Source: Chryseobacterium gwangjuense
GTDB taxonomy: Bacteria > Bacteroidota > Bacteroidia > Flavobacteriales > Weeksellaceae
NCBI RefSeq assembly: GCF_021311115.1
Contig: NZ_JAJTNP010000004.1
Coordinates: 62,001-126,000, forward strand
Length of the DNA stretch: 64,000 bases
Reading direction: 5' to 3'
The notes below the pieces were generated by a model, which did not search any database, was not told the DNA's origin, and saw only the letters and a list, made by a program, of their open reading frames with translations. Below are positions 12,710-62,707 of the stretch, in pieces. Position numbers and translations under genes: made by a program. Each line of letters begins with the position of its first letter. Positions within the stretch are counted from its first letter, which is position 1.

Positions 12710-15658
12710 ATGAAAAAACTTTTACTCATGTGTATGTTGATCTTAGGAATAGGAGTAACTGCACAAATTGATGTTGCCAATTACGCTTTTTCTAAAAGCA
12801 CAGGCAATACCTATACGCCAATTACTGGAGGAACAAAATTATTCCCAACAGGAACGAACACTACATATGATAATGAAATTTCGGCAGCAATTACTTTGTC
12901 CTCTCCTTTTACTTTTGGTGGTGTTGCTATGACAACATGCTATGTGAGTGCAAATGGTTATATAGCTTTTGGTGCTGCACCTACGGGTACGAACTATACA
13001 CCTTTATCAACTTTGGGTTCAACAACCGGAGCGATTGCTGCTTTTGCTCAGGATGGAGGTTTTTCATCTTCGGATGCTACGCAGCCTCCAGGAAATCATG
13101 AAGTTAGATATGAGGATTTAGGAACTGAATTTGTTGTTCAATGGCAGGATCATGCAAACTATTTTAATAGATCTACAGAAAAATTGAATTTTCAAATCCG
13201 ATTGGTCTATGCAACGGGACAGATAAATATAATATATGGAACCTGTACAGATCCGGGAACGGTAAGCACATCAGGAACAGCTCCTCAAGTGGGGATAAGA
13301 GGAAATAGCACAACCTATGCAACCAATGTAAATTCACTTATGAATGGTAATATACCGGCAGGAACAACTTGTGATTGGTCTAAAGTGGTTACTGGAAGTG
13401 CAAATAATAGCAGTTTATTATTTTCTGGAACAACCAATGTGAATGTTAAAATACCTGCGGGATTGAAGTATTCCTGGACTCCGGGGACTCAATTACCGGT
13501 AAGAACTTTTGCTGCGACAACTGCGGTTACTAATAATGGTGCAACTTTAAGCTGGACAGCTCCTACTGGTGCAACAACTTACAATGTTCAGTATAGAATT
13601 ATTGGAAACTGTGATTGGACTAATTTTAGTGGAAATCCTGTTGCTGCTGCTACTGCTTCATTGACAGGTTTGGATCAAAACACTACTTATCAGGTTCAGG
13701 TTCAGGCTTTGAATGGAACTGCGCAATCTATATACTCTCATATACCAAATTTAGCGGGAACAGGTAGTGGATATGTAGCTGCAGGAAGTTTTACAACGGT
13801 AGCAAATTGTGCGAGTACGGTTACAGGACTTGCTTCTTCTGCAATAACTCCGAATACAGCAACAATTAGTTGGACGGCATCCACAGCGCCTCCTGCAAAT
13901 GGATATGAGTATTATTACAATACATCATCTACTACTCCAGCAAATAATGTAACACCATCAGGGTCAACTGCAGCTGGTGTAATTACAGCAAACTTATCAG
14001 GATTAGCTCCTTCGACACAATATTATTATTGGGTGAGAGCAAATTGTAATGGAACAGATAAGGGAGCTTGGTCTAGTTCTGCAAACTTTACTACGCTTGG
14101 TCTTTGTCCTACAGTTACTGCTCCTGCAGCAAGTGCAACAGGTCAAAGTGTAACGCCTACCATTACTTGGACAGCAATAACTGGTGTAACAGGATATAAA
14201 CTAAGAGTCGGAACTACTTCTGGAGGAACAGATATTTTAAATGATATTGATTTAGGAAACGTAACAACTTATACTTTTCCAGCTGCTTTAAATTATTTTA
14301 CGACCTATTATTATTCTGTAACGGGTTATACGGCTACAACAGCGGCTCCGGCTACACCTTGTACAATAAGAAGTTTTACAACAATAGCTAGTTGTATAGA
14401 GCCTACTGCATTAACAGTTACGAGTGCAGCAATAACATCATCAGGAGGTGGCGTGTCTTGGACAGCTCCTTCAACAGCTCCGGCTACTGGATATGAGGTG
14501 TATTATAGTACATCAAGTACGGCTCCTACTTCAAGTACAGTTTTAAATTCAACAAACTCAACTACGTCTACAACAACAACTGCTACAATAGGTGGATTGT
14601 TACCTTCTACTGTCTATTATGTTTGGGTGAGATCTGCATGTATAGGTACGGATAGAAGTGTTTGGACAGGGCCTGCATTATTTGTAACCTTATGTCAGCC
14701 ACCGGTTGTGTTGTCTGCTACAGGGGCAACAGTTTGTCCGGGAGCAACGGCAACGCTGTCTGCAACTACGGATGCAGGGGCGACAATTAATTGGTATAAC
14801 GCCTCAACAGGAGGTGCTGTCTTGGCAACAGGCAATTCATATACGACACCAGCTTTAGCAGCTACGACTAATTATTGGGTATCGGCTGCAACTGGAACAA
14901 ATGGATCTGTTGGCTTTGCAAATGCAGTGTCTACCTCTAATTATACATTAGAAGCAGGGTTGTTCTTTAATGCTATAGCTGGTTTCACGCTGGAAGGTGT
15001 ATATGTTTATCCTACAGGAACAGGTGCAGGTACAGTAACTATTGCATTACAGGATGGAAGTGTTTCTCCTGCAACAACGCTTCAATCTATTACTGTAAAC
15101 TTAACAGGTAGTGCAACACCTGTGAAAACATTTGTCCCTTTGAACTTTATAGTTGCTCCAGGAAGTAACTACAAGTTGATGATGATGACAAAAACGGGTA
15201 GTGTAACCGGGCTTATCAGAGAATCGGGTAGTAGTTGGGGAACTTATCCTTTAACATTGCCGGGAATTGTCTCTATTACTAATGGAAATTGTTGTTCAGC
15301 TAATGCTACTTCAACAAGTTATTATTATTTTTACGATTGGAAGATACGTACAGGATGTGAGTCTGCTAGACAAATGGTTACAGCGACTGTAAGCTCTGCT
15401 GGTTGTCTAGGTACTTCTGAAACTTCTGGTAAAGAAGAAGTAAAAGTTTCTCCAAACCCATTTGCCGACATATTGAATATTTCAGATGTCAATAATGTAA
15501 AATCTATCTCTATAATGGATATTTCAGGTAGATTGGTGAAAACATTTGATAAGCCAGATTCAACACTTCATTTAGGAGATCTGAATTCAGGAATGTATTT
15601 AGTGGTTCTGAATATGAAAGATGGATCTAAACAAACAATTAAAGCAATAAAAAGATAA
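12710..15658 (+). CDS. secreted fibronectin type III repeat protein with T9SS type A sorting domain
   Basis: The 982-residue protein starts with a Sec signal peptide (LLLMCMLILGIGVTAQ, cleavage near residue 19). An N-terminal beta-rich domain follows (to about 255) of a kind seen in Bacteroidota surface proteins (SPFTFGGVAMTTCYVSANGY). Three to four fibronectin type III domains follow (~265-655), with repeated SWTAPTGATTYNVQYR-like and STVYYVWVRSACIGTD-like strands, then an Ig-like domain (CPGATATLSATTDAG). The end, VKVSPNPFADILNISDVN to IKAIKR, is a type A T9SS sorting domain. The protein is therefore exported across both membranes and attached to or released from the surface. No catalytic motif is visible, so adhesion or scaffolding is a guess. 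Confidence 0.88.
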   Translation: MKKLLLMCMLILGIGVTAQIDVANYAFSKSTGNTYTPITGGTKLFPTGTNTTYDNEISAAITLSSPFTFGGVAMTTCYVSANGYIAFGAAPTGTNYTPLSTLGSTTGAIAAFAQDGGFSSSDATQPPGNHEVRYEDLGTEFVVQWQDHANYFNRSTEKLNFQIRLVYATGQINIIYGTCTDPGTVSTSGTAPQVGIRGNSTTYATNVNSLMNGNIPAGTTCDWSKVVTGSANNSSLLFSGTTNVNVKIPAGLKYSWTPGTQLPVRTFAATTAVTNNGATLSWTAPTGATTYNVQYRIIGNCDWTNFSGNPVAAATASLTGLDQNTTYQVQVQALNGTAQSIYSHIPNLAGTGSGYVAAGSFTTVANCASTVTGLASSAITPNTATISWTASTAPPANGYEYYYNTSSTTPANNVTPSGSTAAGVITANLSGLAPSTQYYYWVRANCNGTDKGAWSSSANFTTLGLCPTVTAPAASATGQSVTPTITWTAITGVTGYKLRVGTTSGGTDILNDIDLGNVTTYTFPAALNYFTTYYYSVTGYTATTAAPATPCTIRSFTTIASCIEPTALTVTSAAITSSGGGVSWTAPSTAPATGYEVYYSTSSTAPTSSTVLNSTNSTTSTTTTATIGGLLPSTVYYVWVRSACIGTDRSVWTGPALFVTLCQPPVVLSATGATVCPGATATLSATTDAGATINWYNASTGGAVLATGNSYTTPALAATTNYWVSAATGTNGSVGFANAVSTSNYTLEAGLFFNAIAGFTLEGVYVYPTGTGAGTVTIALQDGSVSPATTLQSITVNLTGSATPVKTFVPLNFIVAPGSNYKLMMMTKTGSVTGLIRESGSSWGTYPLTLPGIVSITNGNCCSANATSTSYYYFYDWKIRTGCESARQMVTATVSSAGCLGTSETSGKEEVKVSPNPFADILNISDVNNVKSISIMDISGRLVKTFDKPDSTLHLGDLNSGMYLVVLNMKDGSKQTIKAIKR

Positions 15659-53175: not shown

Positions 53176-54966
53176 ATGTCAAAAGAGACAAATTCAGCAG
53201 AGGTTATTTTAAACCAAAACGTAGCACCAGAACAATTTGATTGGGATTCTTTCGAATCAGGTCTTGATGCAGATGCGAGAAAAGAAAAAAGCGACTTAGA
53301 AGAAATCTATAACGGATCTCTTAGCAGCTTAAACGACAACGACGTTATCGTAGGTAAAGTTGTAAGATTAACTGACAAAGAAGCTATCGTAGACATCGAC
53401 TTCAAATCAGAAGGTGTTATTTCTCTTAACGAATTCCGTTACAACCCAGGCCTAAAAGTAGGTGATGATGTTGAAGTAATGGTTGACAGAAGAGAAGACA
53501 AAACAGGACAGTTACAATTATCTCACAGAAAAGCTAGAACGCTTAAAGCTTGGGATAGAGTAAACGAACTTCACGAAACTGGAGAAATCGTAAACGGTTT
53601 TGTTAAGTCTAGAACTAAAGGAGGTATGATCGTTGACGTACACGGAATCGAAGCATTCTTACCAGGTTCTCAAATTGATGTTAAGCCAATTAAAGATTAC
53701 GATCAGTTCGTAGGTAAAACTATGGAGTTCAAAGTTGTGAAAATCAACCCTGAGTTCAAAAACGTAGTAGTATCTCACAAAGCATTGATCGAAGCAGATA
53801 TCGAAGGTCAGAAAAAAGAAATCATCGCTCAGTTAGAGAAAGGACAAGTTCTTGAAGGTACTGTTAAGAATATTACTTCTTACGGTGTGTTCATCGACTT
53901 AGGAGGTGTTGATGGATTGATCCACATTACAGACCTTTCTTGGTCTAGAGTGAACCACCCATCTGAAATCCTTGAGGACGGACAAACTGTAAAAGTTGTT
54001 ATCCTTGACTTTGATGATGAGAAAACAAGAATCCAATTAGGTATGAAGCAATTAGAAGCTCATCCTTGGGATGCTCTTTCTGCTGATATGAAAGTTGGTG
54101 ACAGAGTAAAAGGAAAAGTAGTAGTTCTTGCTGACTATGGTGCATTTGTAGAAATCGCTCCAGGTGTAGAAGGATTAATCCACGTTTCTGAAATGTCTTG
54201 GTCTACTCACTTGAGATCTGCTGGTGACTTCGTGAAAGTAGGTGATGAAGTAGAAGCTGAAGTATTAACTTTAGATAGAGAAGAAAGAAAAATTTCTCTT
54301 GGTATCAAGCAATTGTCTAAAGATCCATGGGAAAATATCGAAGCTAAGTATCCAGTAGGATCTAAGCATGTAGGAACTGTAAGAAACTTCACTAACTTTG
54401 GTGTATTCGTAGAATTAGAAGAAGGTATCGACGGGTTAATCTACATCTCTGATCTTTCTTGGACTAAGAAAATCAAGCACCCATCTGAGTTCTGTGCAGT
54501 AGGTGATAAATTAGATGTTGTAGTTCTTGAATTAGATATCCAAGCTAGAAGATTATCTCTAGGTCACAAGCAATTGACTGACAACCCATGGGATGCTTTC
54601 GAAACTAAATATGCTGAAGGAACTATCCACGCTGGTAAAGCTGTAGAAGTTCACGATAAAGGAGCTTCTGTACAATTCGAAGATGCTGAGGTTGAAGCTT
54701 TCTGCCCATCAAGATTATTAGAGAAAGAAGATGGATCTAAAATCAAGAAAGGTGAAGATGCTCAATTCAAAGTAATCGAATTCAACAAAGAATTCAAGAG
54801 AGTAGTAGTTTCTCACACAGGTATCTTCAGAGATGAAGAGAAGAAAAATGTGAAAGAATCTACTTCTAGAAATGTATCTTCTTCTTCAAACAATGAAGAA
54901 AGATCAACTCTTGGAGATATCGATGCTTTAGCAGAATTGAAAAGAAAAATGGAAGAAGGTAAATAA
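53176..54966 (+). CDS. rpsA: 30S ribosomal protein S1
   Basis: The 596-residue protein contains six S1 RNA-binding domains. Their starts are visible as VGKVVRLTDKEAIVDID, VNGFVKSRTKGGMIVDV, LEGTVKNITSYGVFIDLGGV, VKGKVVVLADYGAFVEIAPG, HVGTVRNFTNFGVFVELEEG and HAGKAVEVHDKGASVQFEDA, spaced 80-90 residues apart. GLIHITDLSW, GLIHVSEMSW and GLIYISDLSW mark domains 3-5. S1 binds mRNA on the small subunit. Codon use is visibly biased toward preferred codons (GAA, GTA, AAC, ATC), consistent with high expression. It has a strong promoter, a long leader and its own terminator. Confidence 0.97.
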   Translation: MSKETNSAEVILNQNVAPEQFDWDSFESGLDADARKEKSDLEEIYNGSLSSLNDNDVIVGKVVRLTDKEAIVDIDFKSEGVISLNEFRYNPGLKVGDDVEVMVDRREDKTGQLQLSHRKARTLKAWDRVNELHETGEIVNGFVKSRTKGGMIVDVHGIEAFLPGSQIDVKPIKDYDQFVGKTMEFKVVKINPEFKNVVVSHKALIEADIEGQKKEIIAQLEKGQVLEGTVKNITSYGVFIDLGGVDGLIHITDLSWSRVNHPSEILEDGQTVKVVILDFDDEKTRIQLGMKQLEAHPWDALSADMKVGDRVKGKVVVLADYGAFVEIAPGVEGLIHVSEMSWSTHLRSAGDFVKVGDEVEAEVLTLDREERKISLGIKQLSKDPWENIEAKYPVGSKHVGTVRNFTNFGVFVELEEGIDGLIYISDLSWTKKIKHPSEFCAVGDKLDVVVLELDIQARRLSLGHKQLTDNPWDAFETKYAEGTIHAGKAVEVHDKGASVQFEDAEVEAFCPSRLLEKEDGSKIKKGEDAQFKVIEFNKEFKRVVVSHTGIFRDEEKKNVKESTSRNVSSSSNNEERSTLGDIDALAELKRKMEEGK

Positions 54967-55189: not shown

Positions 55190-57787
55190 ATGAAAAAAAT
55201 AATTCTACCTGTGTTAATTGCTGTATTATCAGTAATGCCTTCCACTTTGTTTTCGCAAGATAACGAAAAACTTATTAAAGACTATATTTCTCAAAATAAA
55301 CTAAGAGAATATAAAAAGTCTGATCTTACAAACTTTATCGTTGATAATGTAGATGTTTCAAAATCATTAAATGGAAGTATTGTAAAGTTTCAACAGACTT
55401 ATAATGGTCTTCCTGTGTATAATGCCGAAGGGACAGCTCTTGTAAGGGATAACAAAATTATTTATTACACCGATACTTTTTTGAAAGATTATAGTTCTGC
55501 GGTTATGAATAGTGCAAGTGTAAGTAAAACAGCGGCACTTCAGAAAATTTCAGAAAATATTCAAAATCCAAAAGTTGCTTCTTATCCTATTTTAGGATTT
55601 TCTGAAGCTGAACCGGATAATGTAAAAACAGCAAAACAAAGATTAGTATATGTAGAAGATGCGGGAGTACTGAAATTGGCTTATCAATTTTCAGTTCCTG
55701 AACCAGATGCTCCCAATTATTGGGATGTTCTTGTAGATGCTACGAATGGGAATATTATTAATAAGCTTGATTTAAACTTGTCCTGTAATTTCCACAAAGA
55801 TGCATTTTCACATGATTATGCTCATTCTCAACATGATTTCATTGGACCTTTAAATGGAACTCAACAAAATTTTTCATTTTTAGTACCTGATAACGCATCA
55901 TATAATGTTTTTCCTCTACCATTAGAAGCTCCTACATTCGGATCTAGAGCTATTGTTAGTAACCCTTGGAATCTGGCTGCTTCTCCTGAAGGATGGCATT
56001 ACGATGGTACGACACATTATACAATTACAAGAGGTAATAATGCTTTTGCTTACGAAGATACTGCCGCCTTTAATGCTCCAGGAATTTCACCTGATGGGGG
56101 AGCTTCTCGAAATTTTGATTATTCTTTTAGTATTAATGGAGATCCCTCTATCAATCAAAATGCAGCGATTACTAATTTATTTTATATGAATAATAAAATG
56201 CATGATATTTTTTATGCATTTGGTTTTACACCAGCAGCTAGGAATTTCCAAAATACAAACTTTGGTCTTGGTGGTGTAGGGAATGATTATGTAAATGCTG
56301 AGGCACAAGATGGAGGAGGAACTAATAATGCAAATTTTGCTTCTCCTGCAGATGGAAGCAAACCAAGAATGCAGATGTACCTTTGGTCACCTACAACTCC
56401 AAGAATATTTTTTTATAATGCACCCTCTGTTGCTGTTCCGAGACAGCCAGGTGCTGGAACGGCGCAATTTGGCCCTGTTTTAGACGCTACAGGAGTTACG
56501 GGTAATGTTAAATTGGCCTCAATCATAGATGGGTGTACAGCGTTACCTGCAGGTTCGCTTACTGGAAAGATTGGTTTGATGGAAAGAGGGACTTGTTCTT
56601 TTACTGTGAAGGTTAAAAATGCGCAAGATGCAGGTGCTGCTGCTGCTATTATATATAATGATGCTATAAATGGAGATACTCTTTTAAATATGGCAGGAAC
56701 GGATGCAACCGTTACCATTCCTTCTGTTTTTATCGGTAATACTGAAGGTGAATATATAAAAACACACCTTGCAGCTAATACAACAGTAAATGTTACTCTA
56801 AAAAATGATCCGTCTACAGTGATTACTCCAGATGGAGATTTTGATAATGGAATTATTGCTCATGAATATGGACATGGAATTTCGAACAGATTAACAGGGA
56901 CAGGATCAGGATGTCTAAGTTCATCTGCAGATAAAGAGCAAATGGGAGAAGGATGGTCTGACTTTTTTGCTTTAATGCTTACAAATAAAGCTGGTGATAA
57001 CGCTTCAGTTCCAAGGGGAACAGGAACATATGCAATTGGACAATCAATAACTGGAAGTGGAATTAGACCTGCAAAATATTCTCCTGATTTTACGATCAAT
57101 GACTATGTTTATGCAGATACAAACGGAATGGAATATACATCAAATGGCGTTCTGGTTCCGGATGTACACTCTATTGGTTTTGTATGGGCGACCATGTTAT
57201 GGGATCTTCATTGGCAATATGTTGCTAAATATGGATATGCTTCAGATGTGATGTCAAATACAACTAATGGTAGCTCTAGAGTTTTACAACTTGTTACGGA
57301 TGCATTAAAACTTCAGGTTTGTAACCCTACATTTATTGATGGTAGAAATGCTATTTTACAAGCAGAATTGGCTACAACAGGAGGAGCTGATAAATGTATG
57401 ATTTGGAGAACTTTTGCAAAGAGAGGTTTAGGTGTAGCTGCATCTGCAGGGTCTAAGACTAATATTAATGATCAGGTACAAGATTTCACAGTGCCTGCAG
57501 AATGTGTATTGGCAACTGATGAAGTTAAATCTGTTAAATCAAATACAATTTCAATTTATCCAAACCCGGCTAAGAATGAATTCTTTATCAATTTCCCAAG
57601 CAATACGTTAGGAAAAGTAAGTGTAGAAATTTATGATATGTCTGGTAAATTAATTTCAACAGAAGATAAAATTTCACCGGAAGCTAAGAAATCCATTTCA
57701 ACAGATAAGTTGATCAACGGAACTTATATGGTAAAAGTAAAAGGTATTGGTATTGATGCAGCTTCGAAAGTCATCATTAAAAAATAA
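55190..57787 (+). CDS. secreted M36 (fungalysin) metallopeptidase with T9SS type A sorting domain (copy 1)
   Basis: The 865-residue protein has a signal peptide (LPVLIAVLSVMPSTLFSQ). An FTP/PepSY-like propeptide follows (~25-190, with FQQTYNGLPVYNAEGTALV). The fungalysin catalytic domain is interrupted by a PA domain (~440-540, CTALPAGSLTGKIGLMERG). Zinc ligands are H558 and H562 of HEYGHG, with catalytic E559 and third ligand E587 in MGEGWSDF. The C-terminal ~75 residues (SIYPNPAKNEFFINF to KVIIKK) are a T9SS type A sorting domain. It should be secreted as a zymogen and degrade extracellular protein. It is followed by a close paralogue, and the last ~590 bp of the two genes are almost identical. 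Confidence 0.95.
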   Translation: MKKIILPVLIAVLSVMPSTLFSQDNEKLIKDYISQNKLREYKKSDLTNFIVDNVDVSKSLNGSIVKFQQTYNGLPVYNAEGTALVRDNKIIYYTDTFLKDYSSAVMNSASVSKTAALQKISENIQNPKVASYPILGFSEAEPDNVKTAKQRLVYVEDAGVLKLAYQFSVPEPDAPNYWDVLVDATNGNIINKLDLNLSCNFHKDAFSHDYAHSQHDFIGPLNGTQQNFSFLVPDNASYNVFPLPLEAPTFGSRAIVSNPWNLAASPEGWHYDGTTHYTITRGNNAFAYEDTAAFNAPGISPDGGASRNFDYSFSINGDPSINQNAAITNLFYMNNKMHDIFYAFGFTPAARNFQNTNFGLGGVGNDYVNAEAQDGGGTNNANFASPADGSKPRMQMYLWSPTTPRIFFYNAPSVAVPRQPGAGTAQFGPVLDATGVTGNVKLASIIDGCTALPAGSLTGKIGLMERGTCSFTVKVKNAQDAGAAAAIIYNDAINGDTLLNMAGTDATVTIPSVFIGNTEGEYIKTHLAANTTVNVTLKNDPSTVITPDGDFDNGIIAHEYGHGISNRLTGTGSGCLSSSADKEQMGEGWSDFFALMLTNKAGDNASVPRGTGTYAIGQSITGSGIRPAKYSPDFTINDYVYADTNGMEYTSNGVLVPDVHSIGFVWATMLWDLHWQYVAKYGYASDVMSNTTNGSSRVLQLVTDALKLQVCNPTFIDGRNAILQAELATTGGADKCMIWRTFAKRGLGVAASAGSKTNINDQVQDFTVPAECVLATDEVKSVKSNTISIYPNPAKNEFFINFPSNTLGKVSVEIYDMSGKLISTEDKISPEAKKSISTDKLINGTYMVKVKGIGIDAASKVIIKK
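57200..57787 (+). repeat. near-identical 3' segment, copy in fungalysin gene 1
   Basis: This ~588-bp end, covering the last part of the catalytic domain and the sorting domain, differs at only about twenty positions from 59931-60518. An unbroken identical run of about 160 bp spans the start of the sorting domain. Upstream coding sequence is far more diverged. Confidence 0.85.
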
Positions 57788-57811
57788 TAAATAATTGACT
57801 TGAAATATTAT

Positions 57812-57852
57812 AATAATGGCTATTCTTTTGAGAGAATAGTCATTATTGTTTT
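57812..57852 (+). terminator. terminator between the two fungalysin genes
   Basis: AATAATGGCTATTCT pairs with AGAATAGTCATTATT, with one G-U pair, and is followed by GTTTT. Confidence 0.75.
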
Positions 57853-57880
57853 AAAAAACGTTTTTATCGAAGATTATTTG

Positions 57881-57888
57881 TAAATTAG
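57881..57888 (+). promoter_or_regulatory. -7 box variant TAAATTAG of fungalysin gene 2
   Basis: The box and its flank ATTATTTGTAAATTAGC are identical to those of copy 1 and lie 17 bases before the ATG. Confidence 0.5.
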
Positions 57889-57905
57889 CACCTTTATTAA
57901 TCAAT

Positions 57906-60518
57906 ATGAAAAAGAGAACTCTACCCCTTATGTTTGCTGCTTTAGCAGTTTTCTCATCTTCAAGTTTATTTTCTCAAGATAATGAGAAATTAATTAAAGA
58001 TTATATATCTCAAAATAAAATTAGAGAATATAAGAAATCAGATCTTACTAATTTTAGTATTGATGTAAATGACTATTCAGAAAGTATGAATGCTGGAGTT
58101 GTAAAAATACAACAAATGTATAGAGGTATTCCTGTTTATAGATCATTAGGCTCTGTGTTAATAAAAAATAATCAGGTTGTGTATTATAATGATTCTTTTG
58201 AAAAAGATTATTCTAATGCAGACTCGAATACTCCTTCAATTACGAAGGAAGCAGCTTTTGGATTTGCTTCTCAAGGCACTAACATAGAAGATCCAAGTAA
58301 AGTACAAATACTGAATTTTCATGATGCAGATATAAAAAATGCATTTGCAAAACACCAATTAGTATATGTAAAGAAAGATCAACAATTGGTTCTATGCTAT
58401 GAATTTACTTTTCCTGAAAGAAAAACATCAAATTATTGGGATGTTTTAGTAAATGCAAATACTGGAGAAATTGTAGAAAAAAATAATTTAAATCTTAGTT
58501 GCAACTTTACTGATCATCCATTTGCTCATTCTCATGAAAATCAATTAGCAGTATTTCCATTAGGTAAAGACCATTATCAACAAAAAAATCCAAATTCAAG
58601 CTTATTATTAGCTCCGGATAATGCATCATATAATGTATTTCCTTTCCCTATTGAAGCTCCTACTTTTGGTTCAAGGTCTGTAGTTACAAATCCTTGGAAT
58701 CTTACAGCTTCACCAGAAGGATGGCACTCTGACGGAACCACTCACTATACGAATGCTCAAGGGAATAATGTTTTTGCATATCAAGATTTAGATGATTTTG
58801 ACTTTTTTTCTGGGGTGACTGTAGACGGTGGGGCTTCAAGAAATTTTAATTTCCCTTATACGGCTGGAGCACTTGCTTTAACAAACCAAGATGCATCAAT
58901 TACGAATTTATTTTATGCCAATAATATGGTACATGATATTTTCTATAAGTTTGGTTTTACTCCAGCAGCAAGAAATTTCCAAAAAAATAATTTCAATTTA
59001 GGAGGTGCCGGAAATGATTTTGTAAATGCAGAAGCTCAAGATGGTGCTGCAACTCCTGTTACTTCAACTGTTCAAAATTATAATAACGCAAATTTTGCTA
59101 CACCTCAAGATGGAGGAAGTGGTAGAATGCAGATGTATGTATGGGTTAATGATGCTCAAAAATTATTTTATAATGCACCAGCATCAGCAACAACAAGAAC
59201 TCCCGTAGCTTATACAGCTCAGTTTGGTCAGCAAATTACAGGCGTTCCGGTAACTGGAAATGTAAAATTGTCACCAGTTTTAGATGCGTGTACAGCGTTG
59301 CCTGCAGGTTCATTAACTGGTTTTATTGGATTGGCAGAGAGAGGAACTTGTGATTTTAACGTAAAAGTTCAAAATATGCAGGATGCCGGAGCAACTGGGG
59401 CTATTATTTATAATGCCGCTACTTCAGCAGCACCTGGTAATATGGGAGGAACCAATCCTAGTGTTTTTATTATGTCAGAACTTATTGATAATGTAGAAGG
59501 AGAATATATTAAAACACAATTGGCAAATAATATTCCTGTAAATGTATCAATGAGCTATAGCACAAAACAAGATGGTAGCTTTGATAATGGAGTTATGATT
59601 CATGAATACGGTCATGGTATTTCAACTCGTTTAACAGGAAACGGTTATAGCTGTTTATCTACTAATGGCTCATATGAGCAAATGGGAGAAGGCTGGTCTG
59701 ACTTCTTTGCTTTAATGCTTACTAATAAACCTGGTGATAATGCTTCTGTTGCTAGAGGTATGGGTACATACGCATCTGGTGAGGGAATTACTGGAGCAGG
59801 GATTAGACCTGCTAAATATTCACCGGATTTTGCAATTAATGATTACACTTATACTGATACCAATGGTTTAGCATTTTCTAATGGAGCACCAGATGTGCAT
59901 TCAATTGGATTTATTTGGGCAACAATGTTATGGGATCTTCATTGGCAGTATGTTGCTAAATATGGATATGCTTCAGATGTAACTTCAAATACAACAAATG
60001 GTAGCTCTAGAGTTTTACAACTTGTTACGGATGCATTAAAACTTCAGGCTTGTAGTCCTACTTTTGTTGATGGTAGAAATGCTATTTTACAAGCAGAATT
60101 GGCTACAACAGGAGGAGCTGATAAATGTATGATCTGGAGAACTTTTGCAAAGAGAGGTTTAGGTGTAGCTGCATCTGCAGGGTCTAAAACTAATATTAAT
60201 GATCAGGTACAAGATTTTACAGTGCCTGCAGAATGTGTATTGGCAACTGATGAAGTTAAATCTGTTAAATCAAATACAATTTCAATTTATCCAAACCCGG
60301 CTAAGAATGAATTCTTTATCAATTTCCCAAGCAATACGTTAGGAAAAGTAAGTGTAGAAATTTATGATATGTCTGGTAAATTAGTTTCTACAGAAGATAA
60401 AATTTCACCGGAAGCTAAGAAATCCATTTCAACAGATAAGTTGATCAACGGAACTTATATGGTAAAAGTAAAAGGTATTGGTATTGACGCAGCTTCAAAA
60501 GTTATCGTTAAAAAATAA
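57906..60518 (+). CDS. secreted M36 (fungalysin) metallopeptidase with T9SS type A sorting domain (copy 2)
   Basis: The 870-residue paralogue has the same plan: signal peptide (LPLMFAALAVFSSSSLFSQ), FTP propeptide (IQQMYRGIPVYRSLGSVLIK), a catalytic domain with inserted PA domain (CTALPAGSLTGFIGLAERG), the HEYGHG zinc site at H566/E567/H570, MGEGWSDF, and an almost identical T9SS type A sorting domain. The propeptide and most of the catalytic domain have diverged clearly from copy 1, whereas everything from WDLHWQYVAKYGYASDV onward is nearly the same, which points to gene conversion. It has its own promoter box and terminator, so the two copies can be regulated separately. Confidence 0.95.
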   Translation: MKKRTLPLMFAALAVFSSSSLFSQDNEKLIKDYISQNKIREYKKSDLTNFSIDVNDYSESMNAGVVKIQQMYRGIPVYRSLGSVLIKNNQVVYYNDSFEKDYSNADSNTPSITKEAAFGFASQGTNIEDPSKVQILNFHDADIKNAFAKHQLVYVKKDQQLVLCYEFTFPERKTSNYWDVLVNANTGEIVEKNNLNLSCNFTDHPFAHSHENQLAVFPLGKDHYQQKNPNSSLLLAPDNASYNVFPFPIEAPTFGSRSVVTNPWNLTASPEGWHSDGTTHYTNAQGNNVFAYQDLDDFDFFSGVTVDGGASRNFNFPYTAGALALTNQDASITNLFYANNMVHDIFYKFGFTPAARNFQKNNFNLGGAGNDFVNAEAQDGAATPVTSTVQNYNNANFATPQDGGSGRMQMYVWVNDAQKLFYNAPASATTRTPVAYTAQFGQQITGVPVTGNVKLSPVLDACTALPAGSLTGFIGLAERGTCDFNVKVQNMQDAGATGAIIYNAATSAAPGNMGGTNPSVFIMSELIDNVEGEYIKTQLANNIPVNVSMSYSTKQDGSFDNGVMIHEYGHGISTRLTGNGYSCLSTNGSYEQMGEGWSDFFALMLTNKPGDNASVARGMGTYASGEGITGAGIRPAKYSPDFAINDYTYTDTNGLAFSNGAPDVHSIGFIWATMLWDLHWQYVAKYGYASDVTSNTTNGSSRVLQLVTDALKLQACSPTFVDGRNAILQAELATTGGADKCMIWRTFAKRGLGVAASAGSKTNINDQVQDFTVPAECVLATDEVKSVKSNTISIYPNPAKNEFFINFPSNTLGKVSVEIYDMSGKLVSTEDKISPEAKKSISTDKLINGTYMVKVKGIGIDAASKVIVKK
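59931..60518 (+). repeat. near-identical 3' segment, copy in fungalysin gene 2
   Basis: This is the partner of the segment at 57200-57787, in direct orientation about 2.7 kb away. Recombination between the two would delete one gene or form a chimera. Confidence 0.85.
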
Positions 60519-60655: not shown

Positions 60656-61636
60656 ATGAAGAAGAAAAATATTTTTAAAGGAGTTTTATTTGTAGGAATT
60701 GGTGCCAGTATATATGGGATGTTAGCGACTTTTGTTAAACTGGCCTATCAGGATGGATATACTACATCAGAAGTGACAACATCTCAGTTTGTATTAGGAT
60801 TATTTGGACTTTTAATTTTAAATTTTATTCAGACTGTAACTTCTAAGAAAATATTACCATCACCAAATTCAAAAGAGATCAGAGATTTAATGCTGGCGGG
60901 AACTTCACTGGGATGTACAAGTTTATTTTATTACATAGCAGTTCAGTATATTAATGTTTCGGTTGCTATTGTTTTATTAATGCAGTCGGTTTGGTTTAGC
61001 GTAGTAGTTGAAAGTTTTATGACAAAGAAATTACCAAAGACCAAAAAAGTAGTATCGGTAATTATTGTCTTATTAGGAACTGTTTTAGCAACAAATTTAA
61101 TTAATTCAAAAATAGATCTCGATTGGAAAGGTGTTTTCTGGGGAGTAATGGCGGCAGCTTCTTATACCTTGACTATGTTTACCTCAAATACATTGGCAAC
61201 ATATCTTCCTGTGTTCAGAAAAAGTTTTGTTATGCTTTGTGGAGGGTCTATAGTGATTTTCGCGTTTTTATTTTTTGCGCAAATCGGACCGCTATACTTT
61301 GATGGCTTGAAATCAGTGTATCTTAACTTTACAGAAAATACGGAACATATTCGTGCTTTCGACTATTCCATTCTTTGGAAATATGGGTTGATATTATCTT
61401 TATTTGGAACCATAATTCCTCCTGTTTTATTTAATGTAGGCTTTCCGAATGCAGGTTTGGGATTGGGAAGTATTGTTTCATCATTAGAACTTCCTGTTTC
61501 CGTTACAATGGCTTTTGTTTTGTTGGGAGAAGAAGTGGTTTTCATTCAATGGATTGGGATTGCTTTAATTCTTTTCGCGATTATTTTAATGAATTTGCCA
61601 GCACAAAAAGAGTATAAAATTGCGGAATTATCTTAA
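60656..61636 (+). CDS. DMT family (EamA-type) transporter
   Basis: The 326-residue protein has ten hydrophobic helices in two EamA repeats. The first repeat includes FVGIGASIYGMLATFVKLAY and FYYIAVQYINVSVAIVLLMQ, with YYIAVQYI-type signature before helix 4. The second includes GVMAAASYTLTMFTSN and LGLGSIVSSLELPVSVTMAF with VLLGEEV. The family exports or imports metabolites such as amino acids and purines; the substrate is not readable here. It is a single gene with promoter box and terminator. Confidence 0.9.
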   Translation: MKKKNIFKGVLFVGIGASIYGMLATFVKLAYQDGYTTSEVTTSQFVLGLFGLLILNFIQTVTSKKILPSPNSKEIRDLMLAGTSLGCTSLFYYIAVQYINVSVAIVLLMQSVWFSVVVESFMTKKLPKTKKVVSVIIVLLGTVLATNLINSKIDLDWKGVFWGVMAAASYTLTMFTSNTLATYLPVFRKSFVMLCGGSIVIFAFLFFAQIGPLYFDGLKSVYLNFTENTEHIRAFDYSILWKYGLILSLFGTIIPPVLFNVGFPNAGLGLGSIVSSLELPVSVTMAFVLLGEEVVFIQWIGIALILFAIILMNLPAQKEYKIAELS

Positions 61637-61711: not shown

Positions 61712-62707
61712 ATGAAAAATTTAAAAAATATTGCTGCTGTTTTAATGATATCGATGGTATCAAATTTTTCCTTTTCTCAAGTAAAACCTTTGGATGCAGA
61801 ACTCACAAATTATCAATATCCTTACGAAGTCTATTTTTACAATTTTAAATCTCAGAAGAACGATTTGAAAATGGCTTATATGGATGTAAAGCCAAAAGCC
61901 GCAAATGGAAAAACAATACTGCTTCTTCATGGAAAAAATTTTAACGGAGCATATTGGGGGAGAACAGCAAAAGACCTTTCAGATAAAGGCTTTAGAGTGA
62001 TTATTCCGGATCAGATAGGATTTGGAAAATCTTCAAAACCTCAAAATTATCAGTTTTCATTTTCTCAGTTGGCAGATAATACAAAAGCTATTTTAGATGA
62101 GTTGAAAATTGATAAAGCCATTGTTTTAGGACATTCGATGGGAGGGATGGTCGCTACTAGATTTACTTTGTTGTATCCGGAAAAAGTTCAGAAACTCATT
62201 CTCGAAAACCCGATCGGATTAGAAGATTATAAAACTTTTGCAGCGTATCAGACGATCGATCAGGCGTATCAATCAGAATTAAAAAATACAGCTGAGACTT
62301 ATAAAAATTATCAGTTAAAATTTTATTACGATAATAAATGGAAAGAGGAATATCAGTCTTGGCTGAATTTAATTGCCGGTTGGACTTTGCATCCGGATTA
62401 TCCGAAAGTAGCTTGGGATGCGGCTTTAACTTCGGACATGATCTACAATCAACCGGTTTGTTATGAATTTAAAAATATTAAAACTCCGACCTTGTTAATC
62501 ATTGGAACAAGAGACAGAACGGCGATAGGAAAAGACAGGACTCCAAAAGAACTTCAGCCGAAAATGGGGCAGTATCAGGAACTGGGAAAGAAAACACAAC
62601 AACAAATCGAAGGTTCAAAATTGGTTGAAATTGAAAATGTAGGACATCTTCCGCATATTGAAGTCTATAATCAATTCTGGGCTGCGTTGTATGATTTTAT
62701 TAAATAA
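61712..62707 (+). CDS. exported alpha/beta hydrolase
   Basis: The 331-residue protein has a signal peptide (NIAAVLMISMVSNFSFSQ) and a classical alpha/beta-hydrolase fold. The oxyanion region is LLLHGKNFNGAYWG, the nucleophile elbow GHSMGG holds Ser142, a likely acid Asp is in LLIIGTRDRTAIG, and the catalytic His is in VGHLPHIE. It is expected in the periplasm or outside. Esterase, haloalkane-dehalogenase-like or lactonase activity is possible; the substrate is unknown. It is monocistronic, converging on rplS with a shared terminator. Confidence 0.9.
   Translation: MKNLKNIAAVLMISMVSNFSFSQVKPLDAELTNYQYPYEVYFYNFKSQKNDLKMAYMDVKPKAANGKTILLLHGKNFNGAYWGRTAKDLSDKGFRVIIPDQIGFGKSSKPQNYQFSFSQLADNTKAILDELKIDKAIVLGHSMGGMVATRFTLLYPEKVQKLILENPIGLEDYKTFAAYQTIDQAYQSELKNTAETYKNYQLKFYYDNKWKEEYQSWLNLIAGWTLHPDYPKVAWDAALTSDMIYNQPVCYEFKNIKTPTLLIIGTRDRTAIGKDRTPKELQPKMGQYQELGKKTQQQIEGSKLVEIENVGHLPHIEVYNQFWAALYDFIK

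Follow-up and report, generated by a model that had tools for sequence, protein, structure and literature searches.

The DNA examined here, a window of 64,000 nucleotides from Chryseobacterium gwangjuense (positions 62,001 to 126,000 of contig NZ_JAJTNP010000004.1 in the draft assembly GCF_021311115.1, which holds 3.49 Mb in 14 contigs), contains two tandem genes for M36 (fungalysin) metallopeptidases with a predicted dependence on the type IX secretion system (T9SS). Both are intact open reading frames on the forward strand, gene A (55190..57787, +) coding for 865 aa and gene B (57906..60518, +), whose body belongs to another deep lineage, for 870 aa. Peptidase_M36 (E 2.5e-130), PA, FTP and Por_Secre_tail domains were identified in A, and Peptidase_M36 (E 6e-126), PA and Por_Secre_tail domains in B; the FTP propeptide motif was reported for A only, with no match in B at E 0.001. 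Each protein ends in a T9SS type A sorting domain (C-terminal domain, CTD; PF18962 and TIGR04183), which covers residues 789-863 of A (57554..57778, +; PF18962 E 7.9e-15) and residues 794-868 of B (60285..60509, +; E 5.1e-15). Both also have the motif HEYGH with EQMGEGWSDFF downstream, which we take to be the HExxH zinc site and its glutamate. The whole-protein scores against NF038113, 1108 bits for A and 1034 bits for B, are above the curated cut-off of 885, and named relatives of the window's M36 gene are nearly all from Chryseobacterium. Judged from their sequences, the two proteins appear to be ordinary members of NF038113, and what sets them apart is the evolution of their 3' ends. Below, G000 denotes the source genome, other G numbers other genomes and L numbers loci; A000 and A131 are the A genes of G000 and G131.

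In a codon alignment, the bodies of the two genes (A codons 56-660) were 63.8% identical in nucleotides and 49.0% identical at third positions, as compared to 96.8% and 93.4% for the last 196 codons. The initial annotation had described the propeptide and most of the catalytic domain as diverged and the last ~590 bp as differing at about twenty positions, and both descriptions hold. Divergence persists in the propeptide, in the PA insert and in that part of the catalytic domain which binds zinc, and the putative zinc-site residues of both proteins sit 5' of the homogenised tract. This tract, at 57194..57787 (+) in A and 59925..60518 (+) in B, aligns without gaps over 594 bp with 19 differences, 10 of which fall in 57217-57335, 5 in 57336-57756 and 4 in the final 31 bp. 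Its longest stretch without a difference spans 165 bp (57488..57652, + and 60219..60383, +), close to the 160 bp noted before; this stretch had been placed at the sorting domain, but corresponds to codons 767-821, that is, to the linker and slightly under half of the Por_Secre_tail domain. A single change-point was located at A codon 669, where the step in identity is far beyond chance (2*delta-logL 309), directly after a variable loop with two indels and about 120 codons ahead of the sorting domain. The synonymous substitution frequency (dS, NG86 method) between A and B was 0.103 in the tail and 0.063 in codons 731-856, while the body value of 1.47 is to be read as large only, since NG86 estimates above about 1 are saturated. 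The similarity ends with the genes: the 90 nt past the two stop codons were 71% alike, as compared to 72% for shuffled sequences. We found no M36 genes in G000 other than A and B, and a DNA search of this genome for the shared 3' sequence matched these two genes alone and thus showed no third donor copy within the genome.

To place these values in context we compared each gene with its nearest orthologue, which for A is in G131 and for B in G143. Only at the 3' end does each copy resemble its neighbour in the genome more than its orthologue (tail: 96.8% against 89.6% for A and 85.0% for B; body: 63.8% against 86.3% and 80.3%), the outcome that the initial annotation had named as support for conversion. 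It had also reasoned that the same 3' sequence in other species would speak for constraint; the orthologues compared carry a different 3' sequence, and gene conversion is favoured. Silent sites agree, with a dS of 0.103 between A000 and B000 in the tail as against 0.483 between A000 and A131, and of 0.322 for the flanking genes of G000 and G131. In the tail, 52 sites were shared by A and B but not G131, 10 by A and G131 but not B, and 8 by B and G131 but not A, whereas the corresponding numbers in the body were 84, 494 and 94. Nine derived states in the tract were confined to A and B, and seven of these are located in a block at 57421..57565 (+), the clearest trace of an exchange after the split from G131. 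Another 12 were common to A000, B000 and A131 and fit A as the donor at some time. B-lineage states persist in the 5' part of the tract (57217..57335, +), where B has the states of the G143 B gene at 57252, 57253, 57318 and 57324, indicative of an older or incomplete exchange. For the body, a tree holding A000 with B000 was rejected (approximately unbiased (AU) test, p 5e-5).

We also inferred trees for the bodies (94 rows, with a quick method) and for the 3' ends (51 rows). All 8 B rows formed one clade in the body tree (support 100), whereas the monophyly of B was rejected in the 3' region (p-AU 8e-66). Instead, the B tract grouped with the A tract of the same genome in G000 (100/96), and likewise in G143 (99/87), G119 (98/96) and G163 (99/81); the two genes of one genome were also paired in G003 (100/100) and in strain c4a (100/99). 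When A and B were paired within and across the five species with A-B or B-A tandems, third-position identity in the tail was 76.5% for the within-species pairing, the best of 120, against a permutation mean of 59.9%. Exchange has thus been recurrent: 3' ends have also been homogenised between the A-B neighbours of other species and within a number of further tandem M36 pairs, each with sequences of its own and in tracts with varied starts that run to or near the stop codon.

The extent of this recurrence was assessed in a survey of tandem M36 pairs whose genes are nearly full-length. It comprised 32 pairs among the matches listed, three couples of which come from closely related genomes. A CTD was scored as homogenised if third-position identity in the sorting domain was at least 15 points above that of the body, as was the case for 18 of the 32 pairs. 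Classified by their flanking genes, 7 of 8 pairs from a more distant M36 subfamily located elsewhere were homogenised, as were 11 of 24 in the slot of the window, which is bordered by the genes here called rpsA and EamA. The change-point lay between codons 582 and 787 in 16 of the 18 homogenised pairs, and in six of the eight pairs of the distant subfamily it fell at 760-787, near the start of the sorting domain. For L187 and L188 the single change-point was at codon 102, because the 5' ends of these pairs are alike. A change-point at a fixed boundary is ruled out by the varied tract starts. The initial annotation, which dealt with the tail of one pair, was right about homogenisation; what it did not include is that other species and other arrays share it, and that the 594 bp look like the product of several events.

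We conclude that the 3' ends were very probably homogenised by homologous recombination between the copies, presumably as non-reciprocal gene conversion, and that at least some of the exchange probably took place after G131 had split off. The homogenisation of silent sites, the boundaries of the tracts, the repetition across species and the broad agreement of 3' ends with flanking genes (see below) were all observed. In the simplest account there were several exchanges of different age, and A-lineage sequence entered B at least once.

Some results weigh against this conclusion or narrow it. A tree of the 3' region that holds A000 with A131 was not rejected by the AU test (p 0.261, delta-lnL 13.5), so the case for an exchange after the G131 split is made by the bootstrap and approximate likelihood-ratio test (aLRT) support, the site patterns and dS. 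Three derived sites shared by A000 and G131 and two shared by B and G131 cut across the A plus B pattern; the tract is therefore patchy and the direction of exchange uncertain. The A and B genes of G035 did not form an exclusive pair in the 3' tree, but fell in a clade of open branching order with the B gene of G090 and others. In G119 and G163 the tracts begin further upstream, at codon 582, and are older (dS 0.5-0.9). The permutation of body third positions was also slightly non-random, with 47.0% for the within-species pairing against a mean of 45.5%, and 4 of 120 pairings as high. Finally, 13 of the 14 unhomogenised pairs represent one recurring type, all located in the rpsA-EamA slot, in which the first gene is A-like and the second is 59-63% identical to A and 53-56% identical to B. 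Tandem placement alone is therefore insufficient, and the notion that all tandem M36 pairs convert is ruled out, given that 14 of 32 do not by our criterion. Pairs of this type make a useful natural control, with the same slot, the same tandem arrangement and a similar body divergence.

The slot is bordered upstream by a gene for an S1-like protein, putative rpsA (53176..54966, +), and downstream by a gene for an EamA-family transporter (60656..61636, +), which is followed by an alpha/beta hydrolase gene (61712..62707, +) that is syntenic at most loci; the latter two were identified by domain matches and synteny, while the names rpsA and rplS were given by reading the sequences. A survey covered 26 loci from about 24 genomes. 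At all 26 the EamA gene had one or more M36 genes as its neighbour, and wherever the DNA shows them, rpsA lies upstream and the hydrolase gene and rplS lie downstream. The exceptions were a hydrolase gene that was absent or poorly matched in L218 and L219, no rplS seen in L081, L145 and L150, a start at the contig end in L146, and a gap of about 2 kb that separates rpsA from the M36 gene in L143 and L185. The slot holds A only in, for example, G131, G125 and C. tagetis, B only in G045, G104 and G090 (the last cut by a contig end), and two A-like genes in G003 and G040. B-type genes with at least 77% identity were found in 9 of 173 genomes of the genus including G000, the next match being A itself at 70%. 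The order is A-B in G000, G143 and G035 (L152, L143 and L144) and swapped to B-A in G159, G119 and G163 (L147, L148 and L150), so the tandem was either formed more than once or rearranged.

A tree of the two downstream flanking genes, EamA and hydrolase (36 rows), recovered species groups that largely agree with those of the 3' tree. Shared groups were G000 with G131, G125, C. tagetis and taiwanense; G143 with L048; G035 and G090 with L066; G045 with L042 and L081; G119 and G163 with L044; and G104 with L077, the last being a four-row group in the 3' tree (G104, L137, L049 and L077) that lacked L137 in the flank tree. The agreement is imperfect, with several open forks and a different placement of L040, and the flank tree has long terminal branches (median 0.29). 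With 3' ends that match the flank groups and B bodies that form one clade, the 3' end broadly follows the chromosome while the body keeps its own, older lineage, even in B-only genomes. The latter combine a B body with the 3' end of their own chromosomal lineage, which makes plausible the earlier suggestion that the direct repeat can produce chimeras.

This pattern is also what would be expected if A or B cassettes were acquired horizontally and recombined upstream of a 3' end that stays with its flanks on the chromosome. Consistent with such replacement of bodies, the 3' ends of B-only genes group with the A genes of chromosomal neighbours, as for G045 with L081 and L042 in both the 3' and the flank tree. 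When the five species with A-B or B-A tandems were removed, the three B-only 3' ends were still not one clade (p-AU 7e-6; G090 is cut by the contig end), while their bodies were (100/100). The species with B are moreover scattered on the flank tree, where a single clade was rejected (p 1e-99) and at least 6 changes are needed. On the other hand, the two copies in G000, with a dS of 0.10 behind diverged bodies, require either exchange within the genome or two arrivals with one tail; the B body tree partly tracks the species (G119 with G163, G035 with G090); and conversion followed by loss of A yields the same B-only pattern. We regard body replacement as a possible but distinctly less probable explanation, and one that is compatible with conversion: the B-only mosaics may well be due in part to incoming DNA that recombined within the 3' part of the gene.

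Less credible still is an origin by unequal crossing-over, or by a recent partial duplication that placed the 3' part of A behind a B body. Tandem direct repeats would allow such events, and the occupancy of the slot does vary between A, B, A-B, B-A and A with a second A-like gene. Yet such an event should also bring along the downstream flank of A, and the flanks are at the level of shuffled sequences in G000, G143, G119, G163 and G003; G035 is the sole doubtful case, with 78% over 60 aligned bases where shuffles give 71%. The derived states also occur in patches, which suggests several short events. A crossover or duplication that carried the flank of A is ruled out by the absence of flank similarity in G000, and in its general form this explanation is very unlikely.

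Purifying selection for one shared T9SS signal and catalytic C-terminus, acting without recombination, had been offered in the initial annotation as an alternative to conversion, and the region is indeed conserved at the protein level, with low dN even between species. However, third-position identity in the tail is 93% between A and B within G000 but 46-67% in A-B comparisons across the five species, and such homogenised silent sites rule out protein constraint as the sole cause. Homogenisation also sets in some 120 codons ahead of the sorting domain. CTDs are furthermore described in PMC4804311 as sharing limited sequence identity, and among 80 CTDs of G000 the amino acid identity averages 32-33% for pairs on other contigs or more than 50 kb apart. 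Since silent sites are affected, the tract begins early and CTDs work at limited identity, selection for an identical signal is highly improbable as the only cause. An assembly artefact, such as a repeat collapsed or mis-joined in the 14-contig draft, can be practically dismissed, as the 19 differences span the tract with no identical run longer than 165 bp and the same pattern is present in genomes of one (G119, G163) or two contigs (G035).

For gene conversion between the copies, we infer the following recombination pathway and feedback, and any benefit of the exchange is likewise hypothetical. Pairing of the RecA type would begin where the two genes stay similar enough, namely in the sorting domain and the conserved final part of the catalytic domain, and each exchange would restore the similarity on which the next one could build. 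Extension in the 5' direction would halt in divergent, indel-bearing sequence, and extension in the 3' direction at the stop codon, beyond which the unrelated flanks offer no similarity. Pairs that have drifted too far apart, such as those of the unconverted type, would cease to exchange.

The 5' ends of the genes show a separate feature. In the first 55 codons (55190-55354 in A and 57906-58070 in B), silent sites are unusually conserved between orthologues, although A and B differ from each other there; dS is 0.09 between A and its G131 orthologue, as compared to 0.59 for the body, and 0.25 against 1.22 for B and its G143 orthologue. A constraint on the mRNA at the 5' end is one possible cause. 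In some tandem pairs of the survey, likeness at the 5' end exceeded that of the body, over the first 102 codons in L187 (84.8% versus 69.9%) and L188 and over the first 55 codons in L053, L186 and L193. As far as the sequences indicate, both gene ends may have been homogenised in some tandem M36 pairs.

We also examined sorting domains elsewhere in G000, where 82 were matched and 80 compared. The 16 CTD pairs less than 6 kb apart averaged 53% amino acid identity and the other distance classes 31-33%, but a general proximity rule is weak, as tandem duplicates explain part of the similarity of close pairs. In two of six close pairs with related bodies, the CTDs were less alike than the bodies at third positions (C1:599420/605018, with 71% amino acid identity in the bodies and 45% in the CTDs, and C13:2913/7943). 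Third-position identity was clearly higher in the CTD than in the body for the adjacent pairs C13:69738/71307 (66 versus 46%) and C11:232094/235023 (69 versus 52%), and also for C14:4488 and C13:2913 (90 versus 60%), which are on different contigs, both near contig ends, and could be neighbours. The CTDs of C1:599420 and C13:7943, at least 140 kb apart, are 84% identical in DNA with barely related bodies. Within the window, the CTD at 15446-15652 (+), at the end of a 986-codon frame, matches that of C11:235023, which is on another contig, at 77% of DNA positions, while the bodies share only 38% of their amino acids. Near-identical CTDs (94-97% in DNA) were found at C11:164-370, C3:164-370, C14:4488 and 9341, and C13:2913, all near contig starts or on short contigs (C14 with 10 kb, C3 with 4 kb), and these repeats probably broke the assembly. 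This comparison, an uncontrolled one, suggests that sorting domains are exchanged among cargo genes of G000. We tentatively raise the possibility that in T9SS users at large the sorting domain evolves as a module of its own, homogenised by recombination, such that neighbouring and sometimes unlinked 3' ends are kept alike and bound to the lineage of their chromosome while the bodies diverge or are replaced.

The slot amounts to a natural experiment in partial concerted evolution: it holds two body lineages of old standing, singly or as a tandem in one order or the other, with 3' ends that follow the chromosome, and also hosts a third kind of pair without exchange. Whole-gene trees of M36 proteases or other T9SS cargo can mix two histories, the sorting domain is a poor guide to the ancestry of the cargo, and the homogenisation of T9SS signals by recombination becomes testable. 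Searches of open-licence PMC papers yielded no report that M36 genes or T9SS sorting domains undergo conversion in Chryseobacterium, and the term gene conversion is confined to the reference lists of PMC5808330 and PMC5714932.

As proteins, A and B show no difference from NF038113 (PF02128 fungalysin with a PF18962/TIGR04183 CTD), which they match over their whole length. Multiple conversion is reportedly named in the title of a study of bacterial class-I release-factor genes (PMC4530459); those are translation factors, unlike the predicted secreted cargo here. Recurrent and long-lasting concerted evolution in prokaryotes was described by Wang and Chen (2018, PMC6053082). As in their cases, paralogues of one species resemble each other more than they do their orthologues, at synonymous as well as non-synonymous sites and repeatedly, and tandem cases are mentioned there; here, by contrast, the 3' part alone is homogenised and the bodies are deeply diverged. 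Neither Bacteroidetes nor Chryseobacterium is matched in the main text of that article. The gingipains of Porphyromonas gingivalis, with their domain rearrangement and allelic exchange (PMC5266723), are likewise T9SS proteases in which C-terminal modules and catalytic variants are not linked, which that source attributes to recombination and gene conversion. There the exchange involves adhesin modules and catalytic variants between strains, whereas in the tandem M36 genes it involves the last part of the catalytic domain together with the sorting domain, and the comparison is between species. The 3' ends of A and B are thus a new and exceptionally clear example of concerted evolution, a process already known.

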